Assembly (NCBI GenBank): GCA_000471925.1
Contig: CP006667.1
Span: 3,038,001-3,102,000, forward strand
Source of the DNA: Ralstonia pickettii DTP0602
GTDB taxonomy: Bacteria > Pseudomonadota > Gammaproteobacteria > Burkholderiales > Burkholderiaceae
Direction of reading: 5' to 3'
DNA length: 64,000 bases
Shown: piece by piece, positions 6,391 to 30,729 of the stretch
Position numbering within the stretch: the first letter of the stretch is position 1
Layout of the letters: each line of letters starts with the position of its first letter
Notes under the pieces: generated by a model
Database searches by the model: none
Told to the model about the DNA's origin: nothing
Seen by the model: only the letters and a program-made list of their open reading frames with translations
Translations under genes and position numbers: made by a program

Positions 6391-6465
6391 GGGTGGTTAG
6401 CTCAGCGGTAGAGCACTGCCTTCACACGGCAGGGGTCACAGGTTCAATCCCTGTACCACCCACCA
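6391..6465 (+). tRNA. tRNA-Val (anticodon CAC)
   Basis: The cloverleaf is complete: acceptor GGGTGGT pairs with ACCACCC, the anticodon stem TGCC/GGCA holds loop TTCACAC (anticodon CAC), the T-loop is TTCAATC, and CCA is encoded. An integrase begins 136 bases downstream, so the 3' end is the likely attachment site of the island. Confidence 0.97.
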
Positions 6466-6472
6466 GATTCGG

Positions 6473-6497
6473 AAAAGCCAGCCTTGCGCTGGCTTTT
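6473..6497 (+). terminator. Rho-independent terminator of tRNA-Val
   Basis: AAAAGCCAGC at 6473-6482 and GCTGGCTTTT at 6488-6497 form a perfect 10-bp stem with a 5-base loop, ending in a T run. It sits directly behind the tRNA. Confidence 0.9.
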
Positions 6498-6601
6498 CTC
6501 ATTTCCGGGGTTAGGACGCACTAACCCTTCGATTTCTGGCCTCCCTCGAATCGGTCCGGTTGCCACAAATTTGCCACACGCAAACTTGTGAAGGACCACG
6601 A

Positions 6602-7612
6602 ATGGCGACTATTCGGCAACGGGGATCGAACTGGGAAGCCCAGATTCGACGCAAAGGCTGGCCCACCCTCTCCCGCAACTTCTCGACCAAGGGCGACGCC
6701 CGGGCATGGGCAACCGTCATTGAGTCCGAGATCGAGCGCGGCGTCTTCATTGATCGCACCGAAGCCGAAAAAAACAGCCTGGGCGATCTGATTCGGAGAT
6801 ACCTGCACGAGGTGTCCGCCCAGAAGAAGGGCGCGCAATCGGAGCGGTATCGTCTCACCGCGATGCTTCGCGATCCCCTTACGCAGGTGAAGGTCGCGGC
6901 TTTGTCAGGCAAGCTCATCGCCGAGTGGCGCGACAAACGCCTGAAGCAGGTATCCGGCTCGACAACGAACCGTGACCTGAACCTGATTTCCCACGTGATT
7001 AATGTGGCACGCAAAGAATGGGGAATCCACATTGACAATCCCGTGTCGATGATTCGCCGGCCCGCGGAAAATCGCGGGCGCAACCGACGCCTGGGATTTG
7101 GAGAGGAGGAACGACTCCTCGCCGCACTCGAAACACCTCCACGCGACCCCAGAGGACGCCTTGCCGGCCCTAGCAATCCCTGGATGCGACCACTCGTGAT
7201 CGTGGCCATGGAAACCGCCATGCGGCGGGGCGAGTTGCTCTCGCTTCATTGCAGGGATGTCGATCTCAGCGACAGGTACGCTCGTCTTCACGACACCAAG
7301 AACGGCTCAGCACGCGATGTACCGCTTTCAACGAGGGCCACGGCCACCCTGGCAACACTCCCTCGTCATATTTCTGGCCGCGTTTTCCCCATTACCGCCG
7401 ACGCGGTCAAGAAATCGTTCACCCGGGCCGTAGCAAGAGCTGGCCTGGAGGATTTTCATTTCCATGACCTCAGGCATGAGGCAACTAGTCGCATCGCCGA
7501 CAAATTGGACAATGTACTCGAGCTTTCAGCGGTCACTGGACACAAGTCGCTGTCGATGTTGAAGCGCTACTACCATCCGCGCGCGCGGGATCTCGCGCTA
7601 AAGCTCGGATAA
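6602..7612 (+). CDS. int: Tyrosine-type site-specific integrase of the island
   Basis: Site-specific recombinase, 336 residues, that would integrate and excise the island at the adjacent tRNA-Val. The N-terminal SAM-like core-binding domain spans about 60-150. The catalytic domain shows the first Arg in TAMRRGELLSL, the H-x-x-R box in FHDLRHEATSR, the second His in TGHKSLSM and the nucleophile in KRYYHP, so all key residues are present and the enzyme looks functional. The start ATG at 6602 follows GGACCACGA with only a weak ribosome site. The position right behind a tRNA 3' end and transcribed away from it is the standard arrangement for genomic islands. No excisionase gene was recognised nearby. 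Confidence 0.93.
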   Translation: MATIRQRGSNWEAQIRRKGWPTLSRNFSTKGDARAWATVIESEIERGVFIDRTEAEKNSLGDLIRRYLHEVSAQKKGAQSERYRLTAMLRDPLTQVKVAALSGKLIAEWRDKRLKQVSGSTTNRDLNLISHVINVARKEWGIHIDNPVSMIRRPAENRGRNRRLGFGEEERLLAALETPPRDPRGRLAGPSNPWMRPLVIVAMETAMRRGELLSLHCRDVDLSDRYARLHDTKNGSARDVPLSTRATATLATLPRHISGRVFPITADAVKKSFTRAVARAGLEDFHFHDLRHEATSRIADKLDNVLELSAVTGHKSLSMLKRYYHPRARDLALKLG

Positions 7613-7703
7613 CGAATAGGCCACAAAACACTGATGCGGCGTATGCAGTGGTAGCACCCACTGCACCCGCCTGACCACAACCAACCTTACAAGGAGGTTT
7701 GCT

Positions 7704-7913
7704 ATGGCTGACGCCATTCTAGCCGCGCACCCGCTGCGCACCCTGCCCCAGGACAGCGACCTGTCCTGCGTGCTCGACCTGGAAAACCCGTTCTACATGA
7801 CTCTGGAGCGGCTGGAAGGGCTGATCACGACCCAGCCAGCGGGCGAGATCCGAGCCTATCTCTATGGCCTGTGGGACATGCGCCGTGCTGCTGTCTACGC
7901 CGAGGGAGCCTGA
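7704..7913 (+). CDS. Small hypothetical protein of the island
   Basis: A 69-residue protein not recognised as a known family. It has a very good ribosome site (AAGGAGG at about 7690, seven to eight bases before the ATG), which supports translation. The sequence is acidic with no membrane segment, and the centre (FYMTLERLEGLITTQPAGEIRAY) is likely helical. Its stop is one base from the ATG of the next gene, so the two are probably co-transcribed. Similar small proteins are common in conjugative or integrative islands of Burkholderiales, but I cannot assign a function. Confidence 0.6.
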   Translation: MADAILAAHPLRTLPQDSDLSCVLDLENPFYMTLERLEGLITTQPAGEIRAYLYGLWDMRRAAVYAEGA

Positions 7914-8421: not shown

Positions 8422-8526
8422 TTGAGCGTATTGATGGTTGGTCTTCGGGGAGTTGGGAAAACGGTTCTCCTCGATCAGATGCGACACGACGCCGAAGCCA
8501 GCGGCGCTCACACTGTCGTACGGTGA
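8422..8526 (+). pseudogene. Truncated P-loop ATPase fragment
   Basis: About 35 codons encode LMVGLRGVGKTVLLDQM, a Walker A strand-loop-helix typical of AAA-type ATP-binding proteins found in mobile islands, followed by DAEASGAHTV and a stop at 8524-8526. Walker B and the rest of the ATPase are absent, and upstream no matching N-terminus is visible in frame, so this is a deletion remnant rather than a gene. Confidence 0.6.
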
Positions 8527-8543
8527 TGTCCATGGTATGCCTC

Positions 8544-9731
8544 TCAGTGGCGTTCAACCTCTTCGGGCTCTTTGGGTTCCGGCCAACCCGCAGGCCGCCA
8601 TCCGCCTACTTCCTTGAACATAATTAGTTCTGGAATCAAGCATTCGAAGCTCTGGAGAGCCCGTTCCTTGATGAGTCTCCAAAACTCGGCTTTGAAGATT
8701 GCAAGCCCCTCCTCAAAATTGTTCAACGCAACGGGCGCAGCTAGGATGGCCGCCTCGTGAGCGCTCTCCATAAAGATTCTCTTCATGACATCATGCGGGT
8801 GCGACCACATGACAGTCGCATAGAGAACGTTATGAGCTGACCGCGTGTGTAGCACCGGCATTAACATATGGAAGCCACAGCTTTTATCTCTTAAATACAC
8901 CCATTCAAGCACCAATTTTGTTTCGTCAAGAAGCTTAATTGATGTGATACGGATTTTGTGAGTCTCCAAGAATGGGCAATCTCTATTTTGCGCGTGAGCT
9001 AGCTCCTTCGCTCGTTCAACCACGGCCCGATTCTCGGGCTCGCCTTGCTGAAAAGTCACAACATTTCTCGACTCTCTTAATGGGGGAATCGCTTGTAAGT
9101 ATTCCTCGCCGATATAAACGAGTCGGTAGCCATCATGGCCAAGATTTCGGTCCCGTTCCGGACACAGCTCAGGGATCCGTGAGTGGGCATTGCCTTCATA
9201 GACGGCATGAAGCCATTCAACCTCGTCCAACTTTTTCTGTACGCCGCGCCAAGTGAAAGTGGTATCCAGAAAGAGACCGAACTCCTCGCCGTTCAGTCCC
9301 GGCGGATGATCACGGTTGAATTCGCTAAGCCGTGCCGCCATATAGGGCAGCGCCGCGCCGTGATGAGTAGGGGAGTAGGCTTGAAAGGTATCAGCAATGG
9401 TCTGGCGCACGCCGACATTAAGCGAGCCCTGCAGTCCGAGGACCGTGTTTGCGTGGGCAGCCAAGGTGGTCCGCATTGGAATCAGGACGAAGCAATCAGA
9501 GAGAGGCTGCCTAAAGCGCTCAATACGGTATTGCCGGCGAATCGCCGAGACTATTTGGACCTCGCCGAGTGATCCCGGCAGAGGATGCTGTGAGCCTGTA
9601 GTGAATCCACGCGCTGACAGTCGTGATGGATCCGGTGCCAAGCTAAAAGTATCGCCGTTCCTACGCGGTTGGCAGACCCAGTCAAGTAGTTGGGGGTCGC
9701 TTAATTGCACAGGATCTGTGATCGCGTCCAT
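8544..9731 (-). CDS. Hypothetical protein of 395 residues
   Basis: The open frame starts at ATG 9731 and has no recognised family. It lacks an obvious signal peptide or membrane segments and looks like a soluble cytoplasmic protein with mixed alpha/beta composition. The C-terminus ends in a Pro/Glu-rich stretch (EPKEPEEVERH). Base composition in the middle (8600-9300) is visibly lower in GC than the flanking core genes, which suggests foreign origin. It lies between a broken ATPase and IS21 debris with no partner genes, so context gives no clue to function. The long intact frame in such a degraded area argues that it is either recent or maintained. Confidence 0.6.
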   Translation of the reverse strand: MDAITDPVQLSDPQLLDWVCQPRRNGDTFSLAPDPSRLSARGFTTGSQHPLPGSLGEVQIVSAIRRQYRIERFRQPLSDCFVLIPMRTTLAAHANTVLGLQGSLNVGVRQTIADTFQAYSPTHHGAALPYMAARLSEFNRDHPPGLNGEEFGLFLDTTFTWRGVQKKLDEVEWLHAVYEGNAHSRIPELCPERDRNLGHDGYRLVYIGEEYLQAIPPLRESRNVVTFQQGEPENRAVVERAKELAHAQNRDCPFLETHKIRITSIKLLDETKLVLEWVYLRDKSCGFHMLMPVLHTRSAHNVLYATVMWSHPHDVMKRIFMESAHEAAILAAPVALNNFEEGLAIFKAEFWRLIKERALQSFECLIPELIMFKEVGGWRPAGWPEPKEPEEVERH

Positions 9732-10024
9732 AGTCGCCTCGTATAGTTAGTCAGGGCATCATAGTTAGTGCCCTTCGGTGTAGGGCCGCCGCACGCGCCA
9801 GGAACAGGATGCGGCGAGCGCGGCCGAGCAGTTTGCTGCTCGACGAGATCGAGTAGGCGCAGAACGGTCTTCGGCATCGGTCTGCCTCCCTTCGGTCGCA
9901 CCTCCGGATCGTGACTGAATGGCGCATACCTTCCTCCTGCCTGAGCATGCGCCGACGATGCTTTAAGTCTAGTCCAAGGGGAAAAAGCCGCGCGGGACGC
10001 GCGCGAGGCTGCATCGAACCGTGC
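9732..10024. other. Degraded intergenic stretch, no gene seen
   Basis: Only short frames on both strands; the minus strand carries a run beginning [15 protein letters not shown] that I do not recognise. The stretch borders the IS21 remnant and is probably decayed mobile DNA. Confidence 0.4.
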
Positions 10025-10571
10025 GTCACGCGATGCCTCCTAAGACCCAAGGCGGCGGAGGTCCCGGACGTGCCCATGCGGCTGGAGTTCAGGCCCGGCG
10101 AGGCCGCCCAGATCCGACTTCGGTGCCGGTCCGACGCTCACCGATGTGTACACCGGCGAGATCCACAAGACCTGGTACTTCGTCATGACGCTGTGCTGGT
10201 CCCGGCATCAGTACGTCGAGCTCGTGCGCGACCAGACCATTGCCACCTGGCTGCAGTGTCACCGACATGCCTTCGAATGGTTCCATGGGGTGCCGGCGCG
10301 GCTCATTATCGACAACCCCAAGTGCGCCATCATCAGGGCCTGCCTGTATGAGCCGAACGTCCAGCGGGCCTACGCCCAATGTGCCGAGGGCTATGGCTTC
10401 CGCATTGATCCCTGTCCGCCACGGGACCCACAGAAGAAGGGCATCGTGGAATCGGGAGTCAAGTACGTAAAGAACAGCTTCGGGCCCCTACGCGACTTCC
10501 GCGACCTCGCCGATGCCAACCGTCAGGTGCGCGCCTGGGTCATGGCTGAGGCCGGCATTCGTATCCACGGC
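10025..10571 (+). pseudogene. IS21-family transposase (istA) remnant, frameshifted
   Basis: Two frames together encode the middle of an IstA DDE transposase. The first (about 10025-10118) reads MRLEFRPGEAAQI, where a typical IstA continues with DFG; the second frame continues DFGAGPTLTDVYTGE and runs through FEWFHGVPARLIIDN with the second catalytic Asp and then KKGIVESGVKYVK with the Glu, to AEAGIRIHG. So a frameshift near 10118, a missing helix-turn-helix N-terminus and a missing C-terminus make it inactive. No istB helper gene is present. Confidence 0.8.
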
Positions 10572-10578
10572 AGACCCG

Positions 10579-10700
10579 GCGTACCTGTGTCACGTCCATG
10601 CCCTCGGCCTCCGCGATCTCGGCCACCGACGCCGCCCGCTGCTCGCCCAGCAGGCGTTGCCAGTGGTGCGCCAGCCCGAGCGCCCGCATCAGCGCGGTGC
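10579..10700 (-). pseudogene. Fragment of a recombinase-associated protein
   Basis: The minus strand encodes ALGLAHHWQRLLGEQ followed by AASVAEIAEAEGMDV, which resembles the C-terminal helical segment of small proteins encoded next to phage or plasmid recombinases (pattern W-Q-R-L-L then V-x-E-I-A-x-A-E). It is about 40 codons long with no start or stop of its own and lies head-on against the IS21 remnant. Confidence 0.4.
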
Positions 10701-10737
10701 CAAAGCACGACCCGACCCGGGCTCACCCTTACATCTG

Positions 10738-11085
10738 TATCCTACGATCGGCTACGGGCATCTCTGCGATCCGAGGCACCCACCGATCACGGAGGCCGAG
10801 GCAGAGCGCTACCTGGCGCACGATCTGCAAACAGCGCTCGCCGCCACGCTGCGCTACTGCCCGGTGCTGGCCACCGAGCCAGAGGGACGGCTCGCGGCCA
10901 TTGTGGACTTCACGTTCAACCTTGGGGCTGGACGCCTACAGACGTCGACGCTGAGGCGACGGATCAATCAGCGGGATTGGACCGCTGCAGGACAGGAACT
11001 GCGGCGCTGGGTCTATGGTGGCAGGAAGGTGATGCCGGGACTCGTCGCCCGCCGAGAAAGCGAAAGTATTCTTCTCCTGAAGTAA
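10738..11085 (+). pseudogene. Phage-type lysozyme (GH24 endolysin), N-terminally truncated
   Basis: The frame encodes the motif YPTIGYGH, then EAEAERYLAHDL, then DFTFNLGAGRLQTSTLRRRIN and ends RRESESILLLK, all typical of glycoside hydrolase 24 lysozymes of phages. The first 20-30 residues with the catalytic Glu are replaced by unrelated sequence, so the protein should not hydrolyse peptidoglycan. It points to a prophage contribution to the island. The fusion junction is just upstream of the TIGYGH motif. Confidence 0.75.
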
Positions 11086-11138
11086 CGTGAGTCAATCAGC
11101 CAAGACTGGTTACACATAGAGCACTGATCATCCCGAAT

Positions 11139-12290
11139 TCAGATGCCCGGCTGCAGCTCAATCCGCACCTCGCGAGCCTTCCCCTCTCGCTCAACAGATA
11201 AAACGACAATGTCGCCCACCCGACGATCATCCAGTTGCGCCAAGAGGCCAGCAACACCGTCAATGGACTTCCCGTCAACAGCGGTGATAAGGTCGCCGGG
11301 CACCATCCCTTCCTGAGTAGCGCGTATCCCGACCAGCCCGGCTCGCTGCGCTGCCGAACCGGGCTGTACCAACAGGACAAACACGCCACGGCGGCCGGTG
11401 ACCATCTGCAAGCGCGCATTGAGTTGCTCGTCCACTTCAATACCCAAAGCCGGGCGTACGTACTTGCCGGTCTTGATCAGCTGCGGCACCACCCGCATGA
11501 CGGTGTCCACCGGCACAGCGAAGCCAATGCCAGCCGACGCGCCGGACGGACTGTAGATGGCGGTGTTGATGCCAATGAGACGCCCGGCGGAATCGAGCAG
11601 CGGCCCGCCGGAGTTGCCGGGGTTGATGGCGGCATCGGTCTGGATCAGATGCTCGATGGCAGGGCCGCCGGCATCACCGGGCAGGGAACGATCGAGTGCT
11701 GAAGTGATGCCCGTGGTTAGGGTCCAGTCCAGGCCAAAGGGGTTGCCAATGGCGAAGACCTTTTGCCCCACCTTGAGGTCGGCGCTGGTGCCAACCGGTA
11801 CGGCCGGCGGACGCTTGAAGCCAACGCCGATCTTGAGCACTGCGATGTCGTGAGCCGGACTTGCGCCGACCAGGGCGGCCTGATAGTCGCGACCATCGGC
11901 GAGTTTCACCGTCGCTTGTGAAGCGCCCTGGATGACATGAAAGTTGGTGACAACGTGTCCCGCGTCATCCCAAATGAATCCGGAGCCGGTTCCGCGCGGT
12001 ACGGAGAAGACGTTACGGGTCCAGACATCCCGAACCAGTTGGGCCGTGGAGATGTACACCACCGAATCGCGTGATTTCTCGAAGAGTTCGATGGTCGAAC
12101 GTTCATCGGCAGCGAGATCTCCGCGAGGGGTGACCGTTCTCTCGGTGGCCTGTCGGGGGCTGAACCACGCCTCGATCGCCGGCAGGAACTGCCACAACAG
12201 CATGAGCGCTGCGATACAGGCGGTGATGACCAGCCAGCGCCGGAGAAAATGGTCTGGTGCGAGGCGGCCGTAAGGGTCGTGGTAAGCCAT
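11139..12290 (-). CDS. degP: DegP/HtrA-like periplasmic serine protease of the heat-resistance locus
   Basis: Trypsin-like protease of the S1C family, 383 residues, degrading or refolding damaged envelope proteins. A single membrane anchor lies at 18-38, not a cleaved signal, so the enzyme is probably tethered to the inner membrane facing the periplasm. The catalytic triad is visible as His118 (NFHVI), Asp148 (HDIAV) and Ser227 (GNSGG). One PDZ domain occupies about 285-380. It is the last gene of the minus-strand unit hsp20-clpK-ftsH-trx-psiE-M48-degP and lies 20 bases after the M48 gene. LHR/tLST islands usually end with such a degP gene. Only one PDZ domain, so it is closer to DegS/AlgW architecture than to DegP. 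Confidence 0.9.
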   Translation of the reverse strand: MAYHDPYGRLAPDHFLRRWLVITACIAALMLLWQFLPAIEAWFSPRQATERTVTPRGDLAADERSTIELFEKSRDSVVYISTAQLVRDVWTRNVFSVPRGTGSGFIWDDAGHVVTNFHVIQGASQATVKLADGRDYQAALVGASPAHDIAVLKIGVGFKRPPAVPVGTSADLKVGQKVFAIGNPFGLDWTLTTGITSALDRSLPGDAGGPAIEHLIQTDAAINPGNSGGPLLDSAGRLIGINTAIYSPSGASAGIGFAVPVDTVMRVVPQLIKTGKYVRPALGIEVDEQLNARLQMVTGRRGVFVLLVQPGSAAQRAGLVGIRATQEGMVPGDLITAVDGKSIDGVAGLLAQLDDRRVGDIVVLSVEREGKAREVRIELQPGI

Positions 12291-12310
12291 GGGATGTCTC
12301 CTAGTTCGAA

Positions 12311-13276
12311 TCAGCGCCAGAGGCCGCCGGGATACCAGCGCGGTGAGCGCATCGCCTTGACGGATTCCGGAACGGAGTAGATGGAATCAGGCCGCAGCGT
12401 CACAGGATGCTGGGGCACGAGTTCAAGTAGCCGGGCGATGCGCTCCGACGTCGCCGGATGCGTGCGCAACCAGGACGGTTCCGGATTGCCCCACCCCGGC
12501 ATGAGCCACGCGCGCCAGGAGCGACTCACCCGCTCGATCTTTGCCAGGGCCGATGCCAGACCGTGCGGGTCGCCGGTCAATTGCGCGGCCAATAGATCGG
12601 CATCGAATTCACGTACGCGGGACAAGCCAAGCTGAGCGAGCAGTGCCAGCTGTGGCGAAGCCGCCAACAAGAACAGACCGAACCAATTCACGTCTGCGAC
12701 TCCGACGAGCAATGCAGGCAGGCTGAGAACAATCGCAACCTGCCCCAGCATGGCCAGCACGCTGGTGAGGCGGCTGATGTAATCGGCCAAACCCATGACA
12801 CGGAGATCGTCATTGGCGATATGCGCCATCTCGTGTGCAATGACCCCTTCCAACTCACGCGGTGTGAGGTTGCGTAACAGGCCCTCGGTGAGCGCAATGG
12901 CTGAATGGCGCTTCGAACCGGTTGCAACGGCATTGACGACGGTGCTGGGCACATAGTGTGGAGTCGGGACGGCAGGCAAGCCCGCGCGGTTGGCCAACTC
13001 GCGCACCATCGCCCAGATTTCGGGTGCTTCACCCGGCCGGATGACACGCGCGCCATACAACTTCAGCGTCAGCGCCGAAGCTGCCGCCGGTTCGAGTAAC
13101 AAGGCGAATAGGCTTGCTCCCAGGGCGACCCAAAGACCCGTTTCGCCGAATAATAGGCCACCGGCGAGTGCGGCGATACCGATCAAAGTCAAAACCAGCA
13201 GCGCTGTCTGCAGGCGGTTGCTCAAGCGATGCTGTGGCCAGAATTGACGTTCGTCGCGTGGGTCACTCGCTGCCAT
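12311..13276 (-). CDS. M48-family zinc metalloprotease (HtpX-like)
   Basis: Membrane-embedded metalloprotease, 321 residues from the ATG at 13276, chosen because the longer frame would run further into psiE. Two hydrophobic segments lie at about 23-43 and 46-66, and two more in the second half (about 175-215). The zinc motif HEMAH is at 148-152 with the distal ligand in REFDAD. HtpX-type enzymes cleave misfolded inner-membrane proteins and act together with FtsH, which is encoded in the same unit. It overlaps the end of psiE by 14 bases, implying translational coupling. Confidence 0.88.
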   Translation of the reverse strand: MAASDPRDERQFWPQHRLSNRLQTALLVLTLIGIAALAGGLLFGETGLWVALGASLFALLLEPAAASALTLKLYGARVIRPGEAPEIWAMVRELANRAGLPAVPTPHYVPSTVVNAVATGSKRHSAIALTEGLLRNLTPRELEGVIAHEMAHIANDDLRVMGLADYISRLTSVLAMLGQVAIVLSLPALLVGVADVNWFGLFLLAASPQLALLAQLGLSRVREFDADLLAAQLTGDPHGLASALAKIERVSRSWRAWLMPGWGNPEPSWLRTHPATSERIARLLELVPQHPVTLRPDSIYSVPESVKAMRSPRWYPGGLWR

Positions 13277-13757
13277 GCATGGCGTCCTCGGCAATTCGGT
13301 CATCGCGCTCACGCAGCAGCCAATAGGTCAGACCCAGGGCCAGGGTGGCGCCAGCCAGCGCTGCGACTTTGGCCGGGCTGACATCGGGATCGAGGATCAC
13401 GAACTTGCGGGACAGCGCGATCAACCCGATCAGGATGACCGTCTTGACCTGAATGATGCTGTCACGGCGCAAGACCACGCGCACGATGGAATGCTTGAAT
13501 TCCATCGCGATCAGGAGCGTCATGATCATGCCGAACACACTCTGGAAGATCTTGTGGTCGAGCGGATTGAATGCATCGATGATCAGCAGGCTGAAGACAA
13601 TTTGGATCAGCTGCACCAACGACACCACGACAATCACCGCGATCACCACTGAAAGGATGAGGGCGACGGTCTGCTCGAAGCGTTCGTAAAACGTCATCAC
13701 CGCCCATTCACGACGGAGTCGTTCGAATGTCGTCCCGGTCTGATTGCTGTTATTCAT
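13263..13757 (-). CDS. psiE: PsiE-family inner-membrane protein (first copy)
   Basis: A 164-residue protein with four predicted membrane helices, including LILSVVIAVIVVVSLVQLI and a helix near FGMIMTLLIAMEFKHS, the best conserved PsiE signature. PsiE (phosphate-starvation-inducible) has no established biochemical role, but it is a regular member of the transmissible heat-resistance locus. The start ATG at 13757 has a GGAGGAG ribosome site; the frame is open 20 codons further upstream without a good site. A second psiE lies at 20801-21292 with strong similarity in the central helices. Confidence 0.85.
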   Translation of the reverse strand: MNNSNQTGTTFERLRREWAVMTFYERFEQTVALILSVVIAVIVVVSLVQLIQIVFSLLIIDAFNPLDHKIFQSVFGMIMTLLIAMEFKHSIVRVVLRRDSIIQVKTVILIGLIALSRKFVILDPDVSPAKVAALAGATLALGLTYWLLRERDDRIAEDAMHGSE

Positions 13758-13792
13758 GCGCCACTCCTCCAAAAACAGGCCATTCCAACCAT

Positions 13793-14230
13793 TCAACGCA
13801 GTTGCGCGGATACCCACCGCACGATGTCCTGCGCCCCCATGGCGCCGGCCTGGCGCGTGACTTCACGCCCCCCTTGAAAAAAGACCAAGGTCGGAATGCT
13901 GCGAATACCGAACTGGGCGGCCAAATGAGGCTCTGCCTCGGTATTCACCTTGGCTAGCCTGATCTTGGGTTCAAGCAAGCGCGCCGCCTGCTGATACTGC
14001 GGGGCCATCATCTTGCAGGGCCCGCACCACGGTGCCCAAAAGTCGATCAGCAAGGGAATGTCGCTGCGCTCCAGGTGGCGCGGGAACGTCGCCGCGGTCA
14101 GTTCAATGGGCTCGCCGGTAAAAAGGGCACGCTGGCATCGGCCACAGTTGGGCTGGTCATTGAGCTTTGCTGCTGGCACGCGGTTGATGGATTGGCAGTG
14201 CGGGCAGACGATATGAACGCTGTCGCTCAT
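13793..14230 (-). CDS. trxC: Thioredoxin with N-terminal zinc motif (Trx2/TrxC type)
   Basis: Cytoplasmic disulphide reductase, 145 residues from the ATG at 14230. The N-terminus has two CxxC pairs (Cys9/Cys12 and Cys29/Cys32) forming the zinc finger of thioredoxin 2; the active site WCGPC is at 68-72. The start codon overlaps the ftsH stop in the sequence ATGA, so translation is coupled. A thioredoxin of this type is a fixed member of LHR/tLST islands, where it may protect against oxidative damage that goes with heat or chlorine stress. Confidence 0.9.
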
Positions 14231-21477: not shown

Positions 21478-21516
21478 GCCGGGCACGCTACCGTCCGACC
21501 CTACACGCCGAGGAAC

Positions 21517-22932: not shown

Positions 22933-22947
22933 GGCTCTCTCCTCAAA

Positions 22948-23388
22948 TCATTGGACCGTAATCGACCGGGGCCTGGACGACTCATGCTTGCTGACCGTCA
23001 CGCACAGACAGCCGTCGACATAACGCGCCTGCACCTTGTCGGGGTTAGCGTTCTGCGGGAGTTCGATGACCCGCCTGAAGGTGCCGGCGAAGCGCTCCTC
23101 GGCGTAGACCTTCCGGTCGCTATCGCCATCGGGCACTGATGGTTTGCGCTCGCCGCTGATCGTCAACAGGCCCTTGCCGATCGAAACGTCGAGTTCGGCC
23201 GGTTTCATGCCGGGCGCGAAAGCGACGATCTCGATGGTGTCGTCGGTGACGCCGATGTTGACTTGCGGGAACGCACCGCGCCTGGCGGAGCGGATGCTGG
23301 ATGGGAAGCCCCCGAAGAGTTCGTCGATCTGCCGCTGAAAGCGGTCGAATTCGCTGAAGAGGTCGTTCCCGAAGTAGAGATCACTCAT
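22948..23388 (-). CDS. hsp20: Small heat-shock protein Hsp20 (first gene of the unit)
   Basis: A 146-residue sHSP of the IbpA-like class. The N-terminus (DLYFGNDLFSEFDRFQRQI) forms the flexible arm; the alpha-crystallin domain spans about 40-140, with PQVNIGVTDDTIEIVAFAPG, GLLTISGERK and the YAEERFAGTFRRVIELP block before the final CLCVTVSKHE. It is the first gene behind the sigma-32-like promoter at 23514-23543 and is followed by a second sHSP 15 bases downstream, an arrangement like ibpA-ibpB. Confidence 0.93.
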   Translation of the reverse strand: MSDLYFGNDLFSEFDRFQRQIDELFGGFPSSIRSARRGAFPQVNIGVTDDTIEIVAFAPGMKPAELDVSIGKGLLTISGERKPSVPDGDSDRKVYAEERFAGTFRRVIELPQNANPDKVQARYVDGCLCVTVSKHESSRPRSITVQ

Positions 23389-23513
23389 GGTCGTATCCTC
23401 CTTTCATCCACAAAAGGAAGGCGAACGGGCGTACGCGCTCCAGTTCGCCTGCCAGATACCTGACAAACAAATGAAACACGCAGCGCGATAACGCGACTGC
23501 CTGAGCGAGATTC

Positions 23514-23543
23514 AAAATAGGAACGCCTCCGCGAAATTTCAAG
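23514..23543 (-). promoter_or_regulatory. Sigma-32-like heat-shock promoter (minus strand)
   Basis: On the minus strand CTTGAAA (23543-23537) is followed after 15 bases by CCTATTTT (23521-23514), close to the sigma-32 pattern CTTGAAA-N13-15-CCCCATNT. It points to the sHSP gene at 22948-23388, leaving a leader of about 120 bases. Confidence 0.75.
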
Positions 23544-23569
23544 AGGTCGCAGGGTCACGTCGCCCGAGC

Positions 23570-23596
23570 CTTGAAATCCGCTCTGTCGCCCCTATT
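23570..23596 (+). promoter_or_regulatory. Sigma-32-like heat-shock promoter (plus strand)
   Basis: CTTGAAA at 23570-23576 and CCCCTATT at 23589-23596 with 12 bases between them match the sigma-32 consensus. It faces away from the sHSP unit and lies about 38 bases before the ATG of a frameshifted gene at 23634, so the original gene was probably heat-induced. Confidence 0.75.
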
Positions 23597-23633
23597 CTCG
23601 ACGCGCATTGCGTTTTTTCACAAGGAGGCGAGT

Positions 23634-23923
23634 ATGGATTTCGATGTGGAATGGCTGACGCTGGGCAAACACCGGGCGTCGCGCAACAAGCCATGGCGCG
23701 ATTGCGCGATGGCGAGGCAATCTTCGTGACATCGCCTGCCGCGGGTTGCCACCTGGAGTCCGTGCAACTCGATTTCGGCGCGTTGACGCCGGCATTCACA
23801 GCCGCCAGCGACAGCGCTGCTGAGGCATCGCCGGGCGCGACTCCGGGCGGTGAACATGCCGATCTGGATGCCGACTACACGTTCCGCTGCAAGGCGCCCG
23901 CAGCGCTCCATCAGGTCGCGTAG
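23634..23923 (+). pseudogene. Frameshifted remnant of a secreted metal-related protein (DUF2796/ZrgA-like)
   Basis: An ATG at 23634 has a strong ribosome site (AAGGAGG) but its frame stops at 23729. A second frame, 23651-23923, encodes MARLRDGEAIFVTSPAAGC and HADLDADYTFRC, which resemble the central part of the DUF2796 (ZrgA-type) periplasmic proteins linked to zinc uptake. The signal peptide and both ends are missing. A sigma-32-like promoter precedes it. The family assignment rests on two short motifs and is moderate. Confidence 0.5.
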
Positions 23924-24046
23924 CGGCCGACATGCGATCGATCGTGCCAAGATGTTTGTCGGAAAACCGGGCATCCGGGTTGATGCCATCCACGTGGCCA
24001 ATGGACGCTGCCCGCCCTGCGAGCGACCTCTTTGGAGGCTGGCAAG

Positions 24047-26098
24047 TTATTCCACCGCCGGAAGGTGCAGCGTAACGGTCGTGCCCTTGCCTACTTCGCT
24101 CTCAAGAGAAGTATGGCCGCGATGCAGCAACACAATCTCGCGCACGAGGGCGAGGCCCAGACCATCGCCGGCCGACCCGCGCTGCAGCTTGCCGCGGAAA
24201 AACTTGTCGAACACCAGCCTGAATTCGTCGACTTTGATCCCCATGCCTCTATCGGTCACTTTCAGCACGGCGTTGCCGCTTTCGTCCGACGCTCTAGCGA
24301 CCGACACGTTGACTTCTCTCCCAAGGCCGTACTTCACGGCATTCTCGAGCAAATGGCGTATCACGCTGGCGAGGGAGGCGGAGTCGCCCATCACATAGAC
24401 TGGCTCTCGCGCAGACTCCAGAGTCACCCGGTTATCGTTCCCAAATTCTGCCTCAACAACGTCTCGCACGAGACTTGCGAGATCCACCCGGCGAAACGTC
24501 ATCTCGGATGCTCCAAGGGTTTCCAGGCGCGTCAGTTGAAGATGATTTGAAACGAACTGGCTGATGCGCTGGGCTTGCGAACGAATCGTGCGATAGATGC
24601 CAAGGCGTTTTTCCGGGGGGATCAGATCGGCGGCGAGGAGGTCGGCATATCCGACGACGTTTGCGATGGGAATCTTGCTTTCAGCTTCTACGGTAGCAAT
24701 GAAATGCGATCTGACCCGTTCCTCGCGCCGCATTGCGCTTACGTCGCAGACAGACACCACGCAGCCAGCGCCGTCGCTGGTATGTACAACACGGATTGCA
24801 TAGCTGGATGAGTCCGCTATATCGAACTCGATAACGCTGCTGAAGTCGTGTGAGGCTGCGGTCCGGTCGATCTCCGCAAGCAGTTCGGACGGGGTGGCTG
24901 AGTCCCGCGTGGGACGTTGGCCTCGATACAGAAGGTCAACGAACCGTTGTGGCGTGGCGCCGCGCAAGTCCCCAGGCGAAGCGCCTAGGGTGTCGCACAG
25001 CCCGCCGTTGGCGTCTTCCACCTGGCGATCCTTATTGAAAATGGCAACGCCGCCCGGCACGGCAAAGAACAGCGCATGCAGGTGCTGGTTCCTTTCTCGT
25101 AGCCGGCGGCTGACCACTGCCTCCCGATGCGCCAGCTTCGCCATCCTCATGATCGACTTTGCTTGGCGCATCTGGACGAGGATGATCAGTGCGGATACCA
25201 AGCTTGCGATGCAAGCGACGAGGAGCAGCCTGCCGCGGTACACTGATAGTGCTTCATGGCGGTTGTAGCCGACCACAACCGCTAGGTTTCCTCTCGATAG
25301 CCGATGTACGCCATAAATGCGCTCGACGCCGTTCAGTGGGCTGTTCTCCACCACTTCGGCGTGGGCCGCGGCAACTACAGCTCGCCGGGCTGAGGAGCTC
25401 GCCGGCAGTGGCTGCCCAGGGTCGTAAGCCGACCCGCTCCAACGCACCCGGTAGATGAAGTCATTGGTACCCAGCAGACCGATTGCACCCTGGCTGCCCA
25501 AATGGATGATGCTTTGGGAGATGTTCGTCAGCGAGAGTGGGTCAAGCGACACCGCGACGACCCCCACGAAACGGCCTGTCGGCGCCACGATTCCCTTGGA
25601 AAGCAGGACTACCCAGCGACCTGAACTACGCCCCCGCAGCGGCTTGCTGACAAACAATGTTGGCCTGGGATTGTTGGCATGTACGCGGAAATGCTCGCTA
25701 TCGCCTACGTCAAGCGCTTCGAAGGTCGGATTGGTCGATGCCCTGAGGACGCCCCTTTCGTCCAGAATCGCGGTTTGAAGGAAGGATTCGGCACTGAGAT
25801 GACCGTTGCGGGTCCATTCGGCAAGCGGCAAGTCCGGACCTCGTTCGATGACGGCGCCGCCTACCAGAGAGGTCAGTTGGTCCGCCTCCATCAATGTGCG
25901 CTCGACGTGCTGGCCAAGGGTATAGGCAAGACGGTCGGCATCGACCTGGATCCTGCGTAATTCGCTGCCTCTGTCCCACCCGGCCCACAGGGCGGATCCC
26001 AGCCAGACCAACAATAGGAGCATGAATGCCGAAATACCCGGGGTGATGGTGCCCGCGGTGCCTTCCGCCACTACCGGCCTATATATCTCCAGACCCAT
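24047..26098 (-). CDS. Membrane sensor protein, histidine-kinase type without phosphoacceptor His
   Basis: A 683-residue protein from the ATG at 26098 (the frame stays open to 26284, but that part encodes an improbable Pro/Arg/Cys-rich lead). A membrane helix near 28-42 is followed by a periplasmic Cache-type sensor region to about 295, a second helix near 300-320, a PAS-like segment (about 345-455) and a HisKA/HATPase module. In HisKA the box that should read AHELKSP reads EAESKIP, with Ala472 (codon 24683-24685) in place of the His. The ATPase domain keeps its N box (ENAVKYG), G1 (DRGMGI) and G2 (GDGLGLAL). So it can bind ATP but should not autophosphorylate. The response regulator at 26329-26919 lies upstream in the same direction. 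Confidence 0.85.
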   Translation of the reverse strand: MGLEIYRPVVAEGTAGTITPGISAFMLLLLVWLGSALWAGWDRGSELRRIQVDADRLAYTLGQHVERTLMEADQLTSLVGGAVIERGPDLPLAEWTRNGHLSAESFLQTAILDERGVLRASTNPTFEALDVGDSEHFRVHANNPRPTLFVSKPLRGRSSGRWVVLLSKGIVAPTGRFVGVVAVSLDPLSLTNISQSIIHLGSQGAIGLLGTNDFIYRVRWSGSAYDPGQPLPASSSARRAVVAAAHAEVVENSPLNGVERIYGVHRLSRGNLAVVVGYNRHEALSVYRGRLLLVACIASLVSALIILVQMRQAKSIMRMAKLAHREAVVSRRLRERNQHLHALFFAVPGGVAIFNKDRQVEDANGGLCDTLGASPGDLRGATPQRFVDLLYRGQRPTRDSATPSELLAEIDRTAASHDFSSVIEFDIADSSSYAIRVVHTSDGAGCVVSVCDVSAMRREERVRSHFIATVEAESKIPIANVVGYADLLAADLIPPEKRLGIYRTIRSQAQRISQFVSNHLQLTRLETLGASEMTFRRVDLASLVRDVVEAEFGNDNRVTLESAREPVYVMGDSASLASVIRHLLENAVKYGLGREVNVSVARASDESGNAVLKVTDRGMGIKVDEFRLVFDKFFRGKLQRGSAGDGLGLALVREIVLLHRGHTSLESEVGKGTTVTLHLPAVE

Positions 26099-26221
26099 GA
26101 ATCCTGGCCACCCCGAAAAAAAGTAGGTACAGACAGCCGCTAGAGGCGGCGCCGTCGAACGGCGAGGTGGTGCAACTGCCGGAGCACTAGGAAGGCCGGT
26201 GCGTGGTTGCGTCTCTCTCCA

Positions 26222-26263
26222 ATATGTGCAAATATGATAGCAACATACTTGTATATGTGCAAA
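26222..26263. repeat. Direct repeat ATATGTGCAAA, two copies 31 bp apart
   Basis: ATATGTGCAAA occurs at 26222-26232 and 26253-26263, in an AT-rich patch 125-165 bases upstream of the sensor start. The 31-bp spacing equals three helical turns. The overlapping 13-mer GCAAATATGATAG (26228-26240) recurs at 27022-27034 upstream of the second kinase. Candidate operator of the neighbouring response regulator. Confidence 0.5.
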
Positions 26264-26328
26264 ATCGATATACAATGCACGCACGGATCTTTGGGGTGCG
26301 TCACATCCCGCGATTTCGGATAGCAGCT

Positions 26329-26919
26329 TTAGGCTTGGTTGGCGTCGCGCTGGTTTGTCACCAGCGATCGCAGCATCGATAGCGGAATGGGCTTGGAGAA
26401 CACATGGATGCGCTTGGGAAGACCACCAAGATCGGCGATCGCGTGCTTGTCAAGCGACGTCACGACCACAACTTGCGACGTGGCACCTTCTGGCCGTGCG
26501 TCGAGTGTCCGGCACAAACGAAAGCCGTCCATGCCCGGCATGACGAGGTCGAGGATGATCAGGTCGGGACTTGACCTGCCAATCTGGAGTAGCGCATCGT
26601 AGCCATTTCTTGCTTGGAGAATCTCGATTGGGGGCGCCAGGTTCGCTAGGGCGGCGGAGTATATCTCCAGCAGGTGTTCGTCGTCCTCTACCAAAAGGAC
26701 GCGAAACACTCTTTTGTGGTGATCGGTGCTACGCCCGCTCGACTGATCCCGTTGGTCCGCCACCAGGCGGTCCACCACCTCGGCCGGTATGCGTCGATGA
26801 CCACCGTCTGTTTTCCATGCCGGGAGGCGTCCGTTTGCAACCCAGAGTTGGATCGTGCGTAGCGAAACGCCAAGCTTCTCAGCAGTGGACTTGGTGGAGT
26901 AGTAGCGCGGATCGGTCAT
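26329..26919 (-). CDS. Response regulator with N-terminal MerR/excisionase-type HTH and C-terminal receiver
   Basis: A 196-residue regulator with reversed domain order. Residues 5-55 are a winged helix-turn-helix of the MerR/excisionase type (YYSTKSTAEKLGVSLRTIQLW, then GGHRRIP). After a linker of about 15 residues the receiver domain runs from 71 to 190, with the acidic pocket at 78-80 (EDD), phosphoacceptor Asp124 (LIILDLVMPG), Thr154 and Lys176 (SKP). Most response regulators have the receiver first. The gene lies between the two kinases and is 300 bases from the divergent one. It is likely phosphorylated by the intact kinase at 27227-28585. Confidence 0.88.
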   Translation of the reverse strand: MTDPRYYSTKSTAEKLGVSLRTIQLWVANGRLPAWKTDGGHRRIPAEVVDRLVADQRDQSSGRSTDHHKRVFRVLLVEDDEHLLEIYSAALANLAPPIEILQARNGYDALLQIGRSSPDLIILDLVMPGMDGFRLCRTLDARPEGATSQVVVVTSLDKHAIADLGGLPKRIHVFSKPIPLSMLRSLVTNQRDANQA

Positions 26920-27226
26920 CTGGCTTGTGTCATGTGACGCAACCGTGGTGCGAGGAGTTGCGCTTGAATCCCATTATTCTATAGGAAGACGAGAAAACAC
27001 AACTTCTTGCCAAGAATAAACGCAAATATGATAGTCCCTCGACAACCTGGCGATCGGTGTCAGGTTTTCTTCGGTGCACCCTACGTGGATAGCCTGGGCG
27101 ACTGGCACGGTAAAGGCAAATCTGTGTGGAAACAGAACCTGGCAAATGAAGTGCTGTTGATATCTGTGCCGAAGCACCACCCTGCGAATCGCTCGACGGT
27201 CTTGCTGCTTTGCTTCTTCGGTGCCT

Positions 27227-28585
27227 ATGAAATTGCGCTTTTACCGGCCGGCTGCGACAGCAGCGGCAGGTTCCAGGAGCCGGCGGTTTTGGCCGGCGAT
27301 CGCTCTATTCACTTGCCTCTGGGGCGCAGTTGCGTTGTGGCGCATTCTTGCAACCGTAGGTGACGGTGCTCGCGAATCCCTTTCCAATATCAGTCAGCGC
27401 TCGTTGACGATCATCGTGCTTTTCGGACTGATTTCCTTCCTCCTGATCGTGCGCTTGCACCTTACACAGGCTCGGACAATGTATGAACTCGCGGCTCTGG
27501 CCGAGCGGGAGGCGGTCATCAGCGACGGTCTGAGGAAAAAGAAGGAGCGGCTGCGCACGTTATTCCAAGCGATGCCCGACGGTGTCGCCGCACTTCGGCA
27601 CGACGGGGTCGTTGATGAAGCCAACGATGCTTTGTGTGACATGCTTGGCGTATCGCTGAGCCAACTGCGCGGCGCCACACATCGCGCATTCGTCCAGTTG
27701 CTCTATCGCGGGCGACAGCCTTCGCGGCATGGCTGCAGCGCAGCCGAACTGCTCGCTGAGCTGGACCGCACCAGCGCCGCGACGGATTTTGCAGCGCTGA
27801 TCGAGTTCGACGTGCCCGACTCGCCAGCCTACGAGGTTCGCCTGGTTCATGCAGCCGACGGAAATGGCACGGTGCTGGTGCTAAGAGACATGACCGATCG
27901 CATCCGGCACGAACGGATGAAATCCCATTTCGTGTCGACAGTCGCGCACGAACTCAAGTCACCCATGGCGAGCGTTGCGGGCTACGCCGAGTTGCTGGCG
28001 GAAAACACGGTCCCGCAGGAAAAGCGGCCACGCATCTACCAAGCGCTGCGCTGCCGCGCAGCGCAGATCAACGCAATACTCTCCGACCTGCTTGACCTGG
28101 CACGTATCGAAGCGCGTAGCACGGGACAAGCCGAGATGCAGGAAGTCGACATGATCTCGCTCGCCCGTAGTGTGGTCGCCAACGCGTTCTCGGAAGAGCG
28201 GCGGATACGCATAGTGGCAGCGCGTGAGCCGGTCATCGCTATGGGCGATCGGCAACAGCTTGAACGCGCCATCCGCAATCTGATCGACAACGCCCTCAAG
28301 TATTCAGCACCGCAAAGCGCAGTCGAAGTCGTGATCGCCGCCGCTGACGCCGGCGACAAGGTCTCGATTTGCATCCTTGACGAGGGTATCGGCATGACGC
28401 AGGAAGAAGCACACATGGCGTTCAACTGTTTTTACCGAGCCGGCCGGCCTGGCGGGCCGAGTGGCACGGGTCTTGGGCTGACCATCGTGCGGCAGATCGT
28501 ACTGCAGCACTGCGGCGAAATTGTGCTGGATACTGAGGCCGGGCGCGGTACGTCCGTCACCCTTTACCTACCAGCGGCAGCGTGA
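27227..28585 (+). CDS. Histidine kinase with intact HisKA (paralogue of 24047-26098)
   Basis: A 452-residue sensor kinase from ATG 27227 (a GTG six bases earlier is an alternative). Two membrane helices (about 24-44 and 63-81) enclose only a short periplasmic loop, so the large Cache sensor of its paralogue is missing. A PAS-like region (about 110-225) follows, then HisKA with phosphoacceptor His241 (STVAHELKSP), N box (DNALKYS), G1 (DEGIGM) and G2 (GTGLGLTI). From the PAS region to the end it aligns with the other kinase without large gaps. Its stop overlaps the start of the EAL gene (GTGA), so the two are made together. Confidence 0.9.
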   Translation: MKLRFYRPAATAAAGSRSRRFWPAIALFTCLWGAVALWRILATVGDGARESLSNISQRSLTIIVLFGLISFLLIVRLHLTQARTMYELAALAEREAVISDGLRKKKERLRTLFQAMPDGVAALRHDGVVDEANDALCDMLGVSLSQLRGATHRAFVQLLYRGRQPSRHGCSAAELLAELDRTSAATDFAALIEFDVPDSPAYEVRLVHAADGNGTVLVLRDMTDRIRHERMKSHFVSTVAHELKSPMASVAGYAELLAENTVPQEKRPRIYQALRCRAAQINAILSDLLDLARIEARSTGQAEMQEVDMISLARSVVANAFSEERRIRIVAAREPVIAMGDRQQLERAIRNLIDNALKYSAPQSAVEVVIAAADAGDKVSICILDEGIGMTQEEAHMAFNCFYRAGRPGGPSGTGLGLTIVRQIVLQHCGEIVLDTEAGRGTSVTLYLPAAA

Positions 28586-29505
28586 GAAGCGGGCGTGGCG
28601 AAGCATCGGTCTTGGCAAGGATGCTAAGGCGTACCTTAGCTGGCGGGTTCCGAGGCCATGGGGCACGGCTGTTGCGGGCACTGCGCAAGTCTTCTGCGAC
28701 GGATGTGCGCCGGGGCCTGCGAAATGGCGAGTTCATTCCGTACTATCAGCCGGTGATCGACCTTGAATTGGGGGCGTGCCTCGGCGTCGAAGTGCTGACC
28801 CGCTGGCAGCATCCGCGTCGCGGCCTGCTCGAGCCGGGCGCCTTCATCTCCGTTATCGAACAACGACGGATGGCGGTGGCGCTGACGCGAACCCTAATCC
28901 CACAAGTTGTGCGTGACCTGTCGCAACTGGCGCTCCCGCCGACATTCCACGTGGCGTTCAACGTCACCGGCGAGCACTTCGCCGATCGTGCGTTCTGGGC
29001 CGACGACTCGCCTGTGTTCGACCTGCTAAGCGCCAACGTGACACCCCTACTCGAGATTACCGAACGCAATGCGATTGTGCTGAGCGAGCCCCAGCGCAGC
29101 GAAGTCAAGCGTGCAAAGGCGCGGGGGCTGAAGCTGGCAATCGACGACTTCGGCACGGGGTACTGCAGTCTCGCGTATTTCAAGACGTTCGATCTCGATG
29201 TCATCAAGCTTGACCAGAGTTACGTCCAAGCCGGGTCAGGAGATAGAGTCAGTACCAAGGTCATTGACGTGATCGTCGAGTTCGCGAGGGCGTTGGACCT
29301 CACGGTAATAGCCGAGGGCGTGGAAACCGAGGACCAGCGGGCTCGGCTTATTGCCAAGGGAATACGCCTTGCGCAAGGATATCTCTTCGGCCGGCCGATG
29401 GCGCTTTCGTCCTTGCGCCCCTGGCTAGGCGAGCGTGCGCACGGCGTGCCGGTATCAAAAGTCGGATACGGAACCACAAATGACTTTGGGGATTCCGCAC
29501 CCTAA
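28582..29505 (+). CDS. EAL-domain c-di-GMP phosphodiesterase
   Basis: A 307-residue protein that should hydrolyse c-di-GMP to pGpG. It starts with GTG at 28582 overlapping the kinase stop by four bases. The EAL domain spans about 45-285. The signature reads GVEVLTRW (Glu70, EVL in place of EAL, a tolerated change), and the other catalytic motifs are NVTGEH, ITERN, DDFGTGY, KLDQSYV, EGVET and QGYLFGRP, so metal and substrate ligands look complete. No membrane or receiver domain is attached; input should come from the coupled kinase, by protein contact or through the regulator, which is inference. Confidence 0.9.
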   Translation: MRSGRGEASVLARMLRRTLAGGFRGHGARLLRALRKSSATDVRRGLRNGEFIPYYQPVIDLELGACLGVEVLTRWQHPRRGLLEPGAFISVIEQRRMAVALTRTLIPQVVRDLSQLALPPTFHVAFNVTGEHFADRAFWADDSPVFDLLSANVTPLLEITERNAIVLSEPQRSEVKRAKARGLKLAIDDFGTGYCSLAYFKTFDLDVIKLDQSYVQAGSGDRVSTKVIDVIVEFARALDLTVIAEGVETEDQRARLIAKGIRLAQGYLFGRPMALSSLRPWLGERAHGVPVSKVGYGTTNDFGDSAP

Positions 29506-30001
29506 TATGCAAAGGAAGCCTCATGGGCCCTCGACCTGCAACGGCGCAATGGCCAATGAAGCAACATTCAACATCGCGAATTGAATGACCGCTTGCTGGG
29601 TGGAACCGACGCCTGAACGTCCAAACAACGGTGCGTGTGAGTGACGCTTCTTGGCCGACAGCGGTCGTGCGCTATACCGGCGCCGAACCCGGGCTTCTCG
29701 ACCAATCAGCCGTTTCAGCCAGGTGCCGAGAAGGGGCCGATAACGACTATGTCCGTCACCCTGGGGCAGCCGCGCCCACATCAACTGCACGGCAATCCAG
29801 CCAATCTCGGATTTCCAGTCCAGCAAGTGCGCACGTAGTCCAGCCAATTCCCTTTCCCTACACGAAGAGTTAGCGGGGAAAGGCATACAGACCGGATGTA
29901 TGTCCGCTAAGGCAGCCGAGAAGCCGTCTGTGACTAGCACGTCGGCGGACGGAGGCCCCGGCTAACCCCTTCGCGAGCGATTTGGCCGCCCGTCGCGAAC
30001 G
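29506..30001. other. Gene-poor end of the island
   Basis: No convincing gene. The minus strand has an open frame at 29521-29940 (139 codons, Arg-rich) that I do not recognise. The stretch may hold decayed mobile DNA, including GGGGTTAGCCGGGGCC (minus strand, near 29965), which looks like a transposon end but has no partner. Confidence 0.4.
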
Positions 30002-30378
30002 ATTCCAGATTGGGTGAAAGCTATCCCACATTCCAGCGCCAACCAAGCTTACGGCTGAGCATATCCCGCAGCCGAGGCATGCTGGAAATCCAGCCCTTCC
30101 GCACCACCTCAGGCGAGGGAACCATATCCTCGGGATGCAGCGCAAAGTAGCGCTCACTGGCGTGTCCGATGCGTTCAGCTTCAAGGGGAAAGCGAGATTG
30201 GATAACCATCGCGGCGAGGCGAAAAATGTTCGCCTCCCGTTGGTCGCGTGCAACGGTCACCTGTCCGCGTCCGGCTGCAACGCAGCGGAGCAGCATTTCG
30301 TCCTCTACATCCCTTGGGTTTTCCACGGCGAATGCCTTCCTCAAAGCTGGGTGAATGCCATTCCAGATTGGGTGAAAG
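30002..30378. repeat. Direct repeat ATTCCAGATTGGGTGAAAG, two copies
   Basis: The 19-base string occurs at 30002-30020 and again at 30360-30378, 358 bases apart. The copies flank the hypothetical gene at 30021-30398. They could be attachment-site or target-site duplications at the island's right end. Confidence 0.7.
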
Positions 30379-30398
30379 GTGCCAGAGAAGCGCCTCAT
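30021..30398 (-). CDS. Hypothetical protein at the island edge
   Basis: A 125-codon open frame whose composition looks protein-like: charged helices (FAVENPRDVEDEMLLRCVA; REANIFRLAAMVIQSRFPLE) and a basic end. No family recognised, no membrane segment. There is no good ribosome site before the ATG at 30398, and its first 12 codons lie over the direct repeat at 30360-30378, so it may be the tail of a once longer gene. Confidence 0.4.
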   Translation of the reverse strand: MRRFSGTFHPIWNGIHPALRKAFAVENPRDVEDEMLLRCVAAGRGQVTVARDQREANIFRLAAMVIQSRFPLEAERIGHASERYFALHPEDMVPSPEVVRKGWISSMPRLRDMLSRKLGWRWNVG

Positions 30399-30425
30399 AC
30401 GGTACTTATACTGGAACCGGACCTC

Positions 30426-30449
30426 GTCGGTTCGAGTCCGGCGCAGGCC
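30426..30449 (+). other. tRNA 3'-half-like sequence (T-arm plus acceptor strand)
   Basis: GTCGG-TTCGAGT-CCGGC (30426-30442) has the form of a T-arm with the canonical TTCGAGT loop, followed by GCAGGCC that could be an acceptor strand. No D- or anticodon arm precedes it and no CCA follows. Possible relic of an attachment site. Confidence 0.3.
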
Positions 30450-30729
30450 CCTCTAGGGTCGCGCGGGGCAGCTGAGACTTGCATGCTAATGGCAAGACCC
30501 GATCCCAGCCACGCGCCCCCGTGGCGCTGCGGCAACCATTTGAACGCAATGCTGCGGAGTTGCCGGCACATTGGCAGGCGCGCGCAGTTTATGTTGCAAA
30601 CAGTTGCGAATTCGACCTTGACATCTGCTAATCTCAAAACCGAGTCCCGCCAATGGGCGGGGCCAGCAGCAGAATGCCTCAGGAACGGGAAACGGATTCG
30701 GGTCAGTGCGCAGAAGAAAGAAGTCAATC

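Follow-up and report, generated by a model that had tools for sequence, protein, structure and literature searches.

Does the block of heat-resistance genes behind a valine tRNA gene of Ralstonia pickettii DTP0602 represent one rearranged copy of the transmissible locus of stress tolerance (tLST), also called the locus of heat resistance (LHR), or was it assembled from parts of different origin? The block lies in a 64,000-nucleotide stretch of contig CP006667.1 (positions 3,038,001 to 3,102,000, forward strand), referred to here as the window, in a Cupriavidus genome of 8.13 Mb on three contigs. An earlier sequence-only reading had proposed a single rearranged tLST/LHR variant with added genes. 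The analyses in this study point instead to a composite island, which we consider the probable explanation: a degenerate, tLSTa-like half (module A) and an independently shared cassette (module B), inserted just behind tRNA-Val.

The region from about 6506 to 30456 is an acquired genomic island. Its G+C content is 0.608, compared with 0.674 and 0.668 for the flanks outside. Both flanks were run against 23 other genomes of the same genus in a search for empty sites. The flanks lie 81-189 bp apart in five of the 23 (G003, G008, G014, G015 and G019; the sites of G003, G014 and G015 were also inspected as sequence), so the same genes do not occupy the same place in all relatives. The flanks are separated by about 1 kb in two genomes (G007 and G017) and by about 5-36 kb of other DNA in nine (G002, G004, G005, G006, G009, G010, G013, G018 and G022). 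The gap was not comparable in G011 and G012, where the flanks are on separate contigs, or in five genomes (G001, G016, G020, G021 and G023) in which the first gene to the right of the site is non-adjacent. The other DNA found between the flanks in many relatives indicates that the site is an insertion hot spot.

The tRNA-Val(CAC) gene (6391-6465, plus strand; called by ARAGORN) is followed by a tyrosine integrase gene (6560-7612, plus strand; PF00589, E 6.8e-24), as the sequence-only reading had recognized. Comparison with the relatives' empty sites showed that the tRNA's own terminator runs to about 6505 and that foreign DNA begins after it, which places the start of the island about 40 nt beyond tRNA-Val. 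The tRNA 3' end is present in a single copy in the window, with up to three mismatches allowed, and is not repeated at the far boundary. The missing repeat and the native terminator extending past the tRNA leave an attachment site at the tRNA end, and with it canonical tRNA-end integration, without support; the earlier proposal of an acquired island holds. In G010, a second copy of the tRNA 3' end lies about 11 kb inside the insert. At the other end, the right tail of the island (29658-30456) includes a stretch at 30420-30456 that by eye resembles a T-arm belonging to another tRNA, GGTTCGAGTCC; no tRNA was called at this place by ARAGORN.

Module A (10696-19666 with its edges; genes at 11139-19580) is a degenerate, tLSTa-like locus. 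It carries the following genes on the minus strand, with protein identities to E. coli tLST in brackets: a degP-type serine protease gene (11139-12290; 84%; Trypsin_2 and PDZ), an M48/HtpX-like protease gene (12311-13276; 73%; PF01435), a first copy of psiE (13263-13757; 79%; PF06146), trx (13793-14230; 83%; PF00085), ftsH (14227-16107; 94%; Peptidase_M41) and the disaggregase gene clpK (16285-19128; 93%; NF033606). These six are full-length open frames in the same order as in E. coli tLST, and are followed by sHsp20-GI (19227-19580, minus strand). The DNA of the window is 83-84% identical to the best E. coli tLST records over the matched stretches, and the clpK-ftsH-hsp20 stretches reach 87%; copies of tLST are described as more than 80% identical in DNA (PMC8290217 section 11). 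The G+C content of module A is 0.628, near the 61% expected of a tLST, and the mobile elements that are likewise expected flank it, namely the integrase, a transposase fragment, a phage lysozyme gene and an IS66 TnpB remnant, the last located upstream of sHsp20-GI (20014-20343, plus strand; PF05717, 106 bits).

The family models thus recovered every gene that the sequence-only reading had listed for this half (hsp20, clpK, ftsH, trx, psiE, M48 and degP), but the sHsp20 gene is shortened. It has an in-frame internal deletion: of the 189 residues of the E. coli protein, the alignment covers only 1-35 and 109-187, so that about 73 internal residues (about 36-108) are missing, and its HSP20 domain match begins at profile position 26. 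Whole copies of sHsp20-GI are present in other genomes; the copy in the sister genome Cupriavidus necator A5-1 (G069) has the same deletion, and its frame is also broken. The absence of yfdX, hdeD and kefB had been noted correctly: yfdX1, yfdX2, hdeD, kefB and cls gave no tblastn match in the window (E ≤ 1e-5), and the second small heat shock protein (sHSP) gene of tLST is also missing from module A. The tLST regulator gene dna gave no tblastn match below E = 0.79 in the window and was not found in G069 either. The dna product is a 93-residue HTH_17 protein, which is present at 66-77% identity in five other Cupriavidus tLST loci (G034, G020, G066, G079 and G072C32). Kamal et al. name dna-hsp20-clpG as the core tLST genes in the section cited above, and two of these three fail here. 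Because dna is missing and sHsp20 is shortened, module A is a tLST-derived remnant and not a complete tLST.

Such damage raises the possibility, which we consider unlikely, that module A is a silent relic which, deprived of dna, of its upstream region and of a complete sHsp20, has ceased to give heat resistance, leaving module B as the only working part of the island. The IS66 remnant upstream of the shortened gene fits such decay, and so does the missing dna gene, given that the E. coli tLST promoter is placed just upstream of orf1/dna in the account of a review (PMC8290217). However, clpK, ftsH, trx, psiE, M48 and degP are all intact as frames, and their proteins are 99% identical in G069. 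In the composite reading, module A is a locus encoding proteases, thioredoxin and the ClpK disaggregase, from which the dna regulator and part of sHsp20 have been lost.

The origin of clpK was examined in protein trees. The ClpK protein of the window passes the NCBIfam model NF033606 (2119.3 bits; cut-off 1900), and in a 21-protein tree it clustered with ClpK of E. coli and with four further Cupriavidus copies, the remaining ClpG proteins of the genus falling elsewhere. The possibility that clpK is a core gene of the genus was rejected, as the relatives hold ClpG proteins of about 62% identity but the window's copy groups apart from those and does not follow the species tree. In a 27-protein tree, in which 10 of the 24 inner branches are weak, the window's ClpK grouped with that of G069 and one further protein, and those of G034 and G066 grouped with E. 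coli and Vulcaniibacterium. ClpK of the tLST type (at least 92% identity) is present in 7 of 60 genomes of the genus, one of which has it as two separate pieces. A third ClpG lineage was observed in G005, G017, G028 and G072 (loci L016, L022, L129 and L098) with psiE near clpG; some of these loci also have a gene for an AraC regulator, a PRC-barrel or HdeD-like protein, a relative of the module B kinase HK1 or EAL proteins nearby, and they possibly represent another type of stress locus.

Module B (20501-29657) contains the second set of three sHSP genes and psiE that had been noticed earlier, together with the two kinases, the regulator and the EAL enzyme, all confirmed by family models. On the minus strand are the second psiE copy (20801-21292; PF06146), hspA (21517-22083; PF00011), a small gene with a sub-threshold DUF6566 match (22156-22437; 20.5 bits, cut-off 26.7), hspB (22519-22932; PF00011) and hspC (22948-23388; PF00011); the signalling genes follow to the right. 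Module A is common to the window's genome and G069 at 99.14% identity over 8,981 columns (G069:C1:755088-764062) and module B at 99.56% over 9,161 columns (G069:C1:596446-605603). In G069, the two modules are about 150 kb apart and away from tRNA-Val, and an unrelated 1.46-kb piece occupies the tRNA-Val site, with the flank match resuming at 30457. Over about 11.6 kb of compared flank the identity is 95.2-96.3%, against 99.1% and 99.6% for the modules, which suggests that sharing of the modules is more recent than that of the backbone. The stretch at 8424-10572, which includes the gene w395 described below, is 98.7-99.2% identical to G069, where it is inverted and located on the other side of module A. 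Complete module B was found in only 2 of the 60 genus genomes (G000 and G069), and relatives of its sHSP trio occur at about 62-74% identity, among others on the third contig of the window's genome. The modules of G069 are in a stretch of mostly 58-64% G+C. One 20-kb piece of the region between them had eight short matches in the window's genome, in a comparison with five genomes, and a search of plasmids with the same piece gave a 5-kb match of 94% to a 1.19-Mb Cupriavidus necator replicon. Module B was also considered as a transposon and rejected as such: no long terminal repeats were found at its ends, where short matches of up to 13 nt are at chance level.

These results are difficult to reconcile with a single rearranged variant to which genes were added, the part of the sequence-only reading that has to be given up; its assignment to tLST/LHR holds for one part of the island, by the 73-94% protein identities and the ClpK grouping, and module B is a separate unit. 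Alternatively, a single tLST/LHR variant could have been rearranged, gained genes and later been split in two in G069, which we regard as improbable. In its favor, psiE and hsp20 genes are found in both halves, the genes from the regulator of module B through degP are all on the minus strand, and the helix-turn-helix (HTH) part of that regulator shares 36% identity across 44 residues with the dna protein of E. coli tLST (E = 2e-5), another member of the HTH_17 family. Furthermore, in G072 a relative of one module B kinase, HK1, adjoins clpG, with psiE nearby. Against it, the modules are far apart in G069, the five dna-bearing Cupriavidus loci have no module B genes within the stretches examined, relatives of parts of module B are found without tLST on other replicons, and the second PsiE shares only 59% identity with that of tLST.

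The composite reading has its own difficulties. The flank comparison with G069 covers only about 11.6 kb, and faster local divergence is therefore possible; the modules may have come together here or been separated in G069; and the support as a whole comes from sequence comparison and prediction. Subject to these points, the island appears to be a composite of two cassettes, of which module B is shared independently. The composite architecture and module B itself appear to be new, within the limits of a literature search, which is no proof that module B is unpublished.

How the sHSP genes of module B might be controlled was analyzed from the region upstream of hspC. It contains CTTGAAA-N15-CCTATTT (23515-23543, minus strand), which resembles a promoter of the sigma32 type; the site was found by a pattern match, and the pattern was relaxed after the site was seen. 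Across 10 aligned loci, CTTGAAA does not vary and the second element scarcely does. Between this site and hspC is a leader of about 125 nt (23386-23514, minus strand), strongly conserved in the same loci, which is a candidate RNA thermometer. Its consensus structure is predicted to end in a hairpin over the Shine-Dalgarno sequence, and the leader of the window folds 4.6 standard deviations better than shuffled sequences (3.0, 0.9 and 2.2 for three relatives). A search of 300 genomes of the order identified seven with matches to the leader at E ≤ 0.01. Of 17 leader matches that were aligned, the 13 strong ones were counted; the remaining four, which were weak (22.8-24.2 bits), were set aside, and three of these come from genomes without an adjoining sHSP match. 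Outside the genus, the strong matches precede sHSP genes (G343 and G325), whereas the three weak matches lack an sHSP neighbour. The leader is found ahead of sHSP pairs both in G343, which belongs to another genus of the family, and in G325, from another family of the order (loci L164, L165, L166 and L171).

ROSE thermometers are structured sHSP leaders whose last hairpin covers the Shine-Dalgarno sequence, and the leader of hspC is predicted to share this arrangement; unlike them, it has no match to the Rfam ROSE models (searched to E = 1 for the island and to E = 10 for the leader), and its last hairpin is predicted to be very stable. Besides that missing match, other results also speak against a thermometer. 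For one of the four leaders, folding was no better than that of shuffled sequences (z -0.88), and the predicted accessibility of the Shine-Dalgarno sequence is small: 0.01 at 25°C and still only 0.11 when the temperature is raised to 60°C. Covariation is within the shuffle range, its level being reached by 83 of 500 shuffles, with two-sided changes in 3 of 38 pairs and none in the last hairpin. The sHSP operon, with its own conserved sigma32-like promoter and a leader that may hide the Shine-Dalgarno sequence, is probably the heat-inducible part of the island. Transcription would be turned on by heat via the sigma32-type promoter, and a second control possibly acts at translation, through the leader hiding the ribosome-binding site. 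The sHSPs of module B may now serve as holdases for ClpK, replacing the damaged sHsp20.

The signalling genes beside the sHSP operon encode HK1 (24047-26284, minus strand), a regulator with HTH_17 and receiver domains (26329-26919, minus strand; PF12728 and PF00072), the histidine kinase HK2 (27221-28585, plus strand; HisKA and HATPase_c) and an EAL protein (28582-29505, plus strand; PF00563, E 2.4e-56). Proteins closely related to the regulator bear the genus name Cupriavidus. HK1 and HK2 are paralogous (42.5% identity over 407 residues), and in the alignment of their motifs HELKSP of HK2 corresponds to AESKIP in HK1, which has thus lost the phospho-acceptor histidine. Consistent with this, the HisKA score of HK1 is 22.9, under the cut-off of 26.9. 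Its ATP-binding domain is kept (HATPase_c, 85.6 bits; N, G1 and G2 stretches present). The histidine is also missing in three close relatives of HK1 (83-99% identity), which keep the ATP-binding stretches as well; a 58% relative and six regulator-linked kinases keep the histidine motif. A possible sensor domain in HK1 is suggested by a weak dCache match (24.9 bits; cut-off 45). The EAL protein is a probable cyclic di-GMP phosphodiesterase; it keeps motifs that we presume to be catalytic. It may be supposed that HK1 tunes HK2, that the regulator acts on genes of the module and that the EAL protein would cleave cyclic di-GMP.

It is also possible, although we do not favor it, that the sHSP genes are controlled without any part played by the regulator, the kinases and the EAL gene, which would then be passengers. 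The sHSP operon has its own promoter-like site, and a regulator-kinase-EAL unit without sHSP, psiE or clpK was found in 20-kb stretches of six other genomes (G076, G062, G021, G023, G032 and G061). On these other Cupriavidus replicons the regulator is 67-71% identical and accompanied by a divergent kinase in all six genomes, with an EAL protein of 63-67% identity in five of the six; unlike the window, which has HK1 without the histidine and a shorter HK2 with it, they have one full-length kinase with the histidine. Against a passenger role, both parts of module B are kept together at 99.6% identity in G069, and the HK1 relative of G072 is beside clpG.

The left part of the island contains remnants of mobile elements and the rare gene w395 (8544-9731, minus strand), which encodes a 395-residue protein of no known family, with no match in Pfam, PADLOC or plasmids. 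A protein search among about 5.8 billion proteins returned nine clusters, including the window's own. The gene was found in 4 of the 60 genus genomes, in two loci of the species-genome collection (G017 and G069) and, among 399 genomes of the order, only as the window's own copy. Besides the window's, the copies are at L016:4794-5978, L161:10001-11185 and L158. All four are near stress genes: tLST genes in the window and G069, psiE in G017 and G028, and in G028 also clpG. With four copies in one genus, this link to stress genes is a lead rather than a test. To the right of w395 is the transposase (integrase-core) fragment (10146-10572, plus strand; PF00665 in the first part of the open reading frame at 10146-11090), followed by the phage lysozyme-type gene adjoining degP (10513-11085, plus strand; PF00959, E 3.9e-27). 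In G034 and G020 as well, DNA similar to this lysozyme gene is found beside degP of the tLST locus (L012:8224-8604 and L014:2576-2956). To the left, the R1162-like plasmid antisense RNA is matched below threshold at 7637-7711 (plus strand; 46.9 bits, with a gathering threshold of 55).

Among known systems, the island is closest in its module A to tLSTa, TLPQC-1 and LHR, by its gene order from degP to clpK, its proteins and its DNA; unlike these, it is without dna, cls, the second tLST sHSP, yfdX1/2, hdeD and kefB, has a shortened sHsp20 and is joined to module B. Several of its traits have precedents in the published accounts as far as these go: tLST variants without the envelope module and with cyclic di-GMP genes (PMC8290217 sections 11-12), tLST islands near tRNA genes or inside integrative conjugative elements (PMC8290217, PMC7685784 and PMC5347186), and a tLST locus listed for Cupriavidus gilardii. 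The island described in PMC7685784 also carries tLST cargo beside a tRNA gene, and in one strain a GGDEF-EAL gene replaces kefC; it is located at the 3' end of tRNA-Gly, whereas the present island starts about 40 nt beyond tRNA-Val and no repeat of the tRNA was detected, and what is reported of it includes no module B.

A more far-reaching proposal, which we regard as speculative and rather doubtful, treats module B as a transmissible stress cassette of Cupriavidus belonging to a second kind that is so far undescribed. In such a cassette, a sigma32 promoter and a temperature-opened mRNA leader would drive the three sHSPs, and a split sensor pair, in which HK1 without its histidine detects and HK2 phosphorylates, would drive the HTH-receiver regulator and the EAL enzyme, tying heat or envelope stress to cyclic di-GMP. 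Joined to a crippled tLST, the cassette would supply its lost holdase.

In conclusion, a Cupriavidus necator-like pair of genomes carries a worn tLST, which in one of the two is placed beside a separate sHSP cassette that also appears to be shared alone. With such a pair it becomes possible to test whether stress islands arise through exchange of the holdase and regulator modules that surround the ClpK disaggregase, and whether a kinase relative without its phospho-acceptor histidine has a role in a stress cassette.

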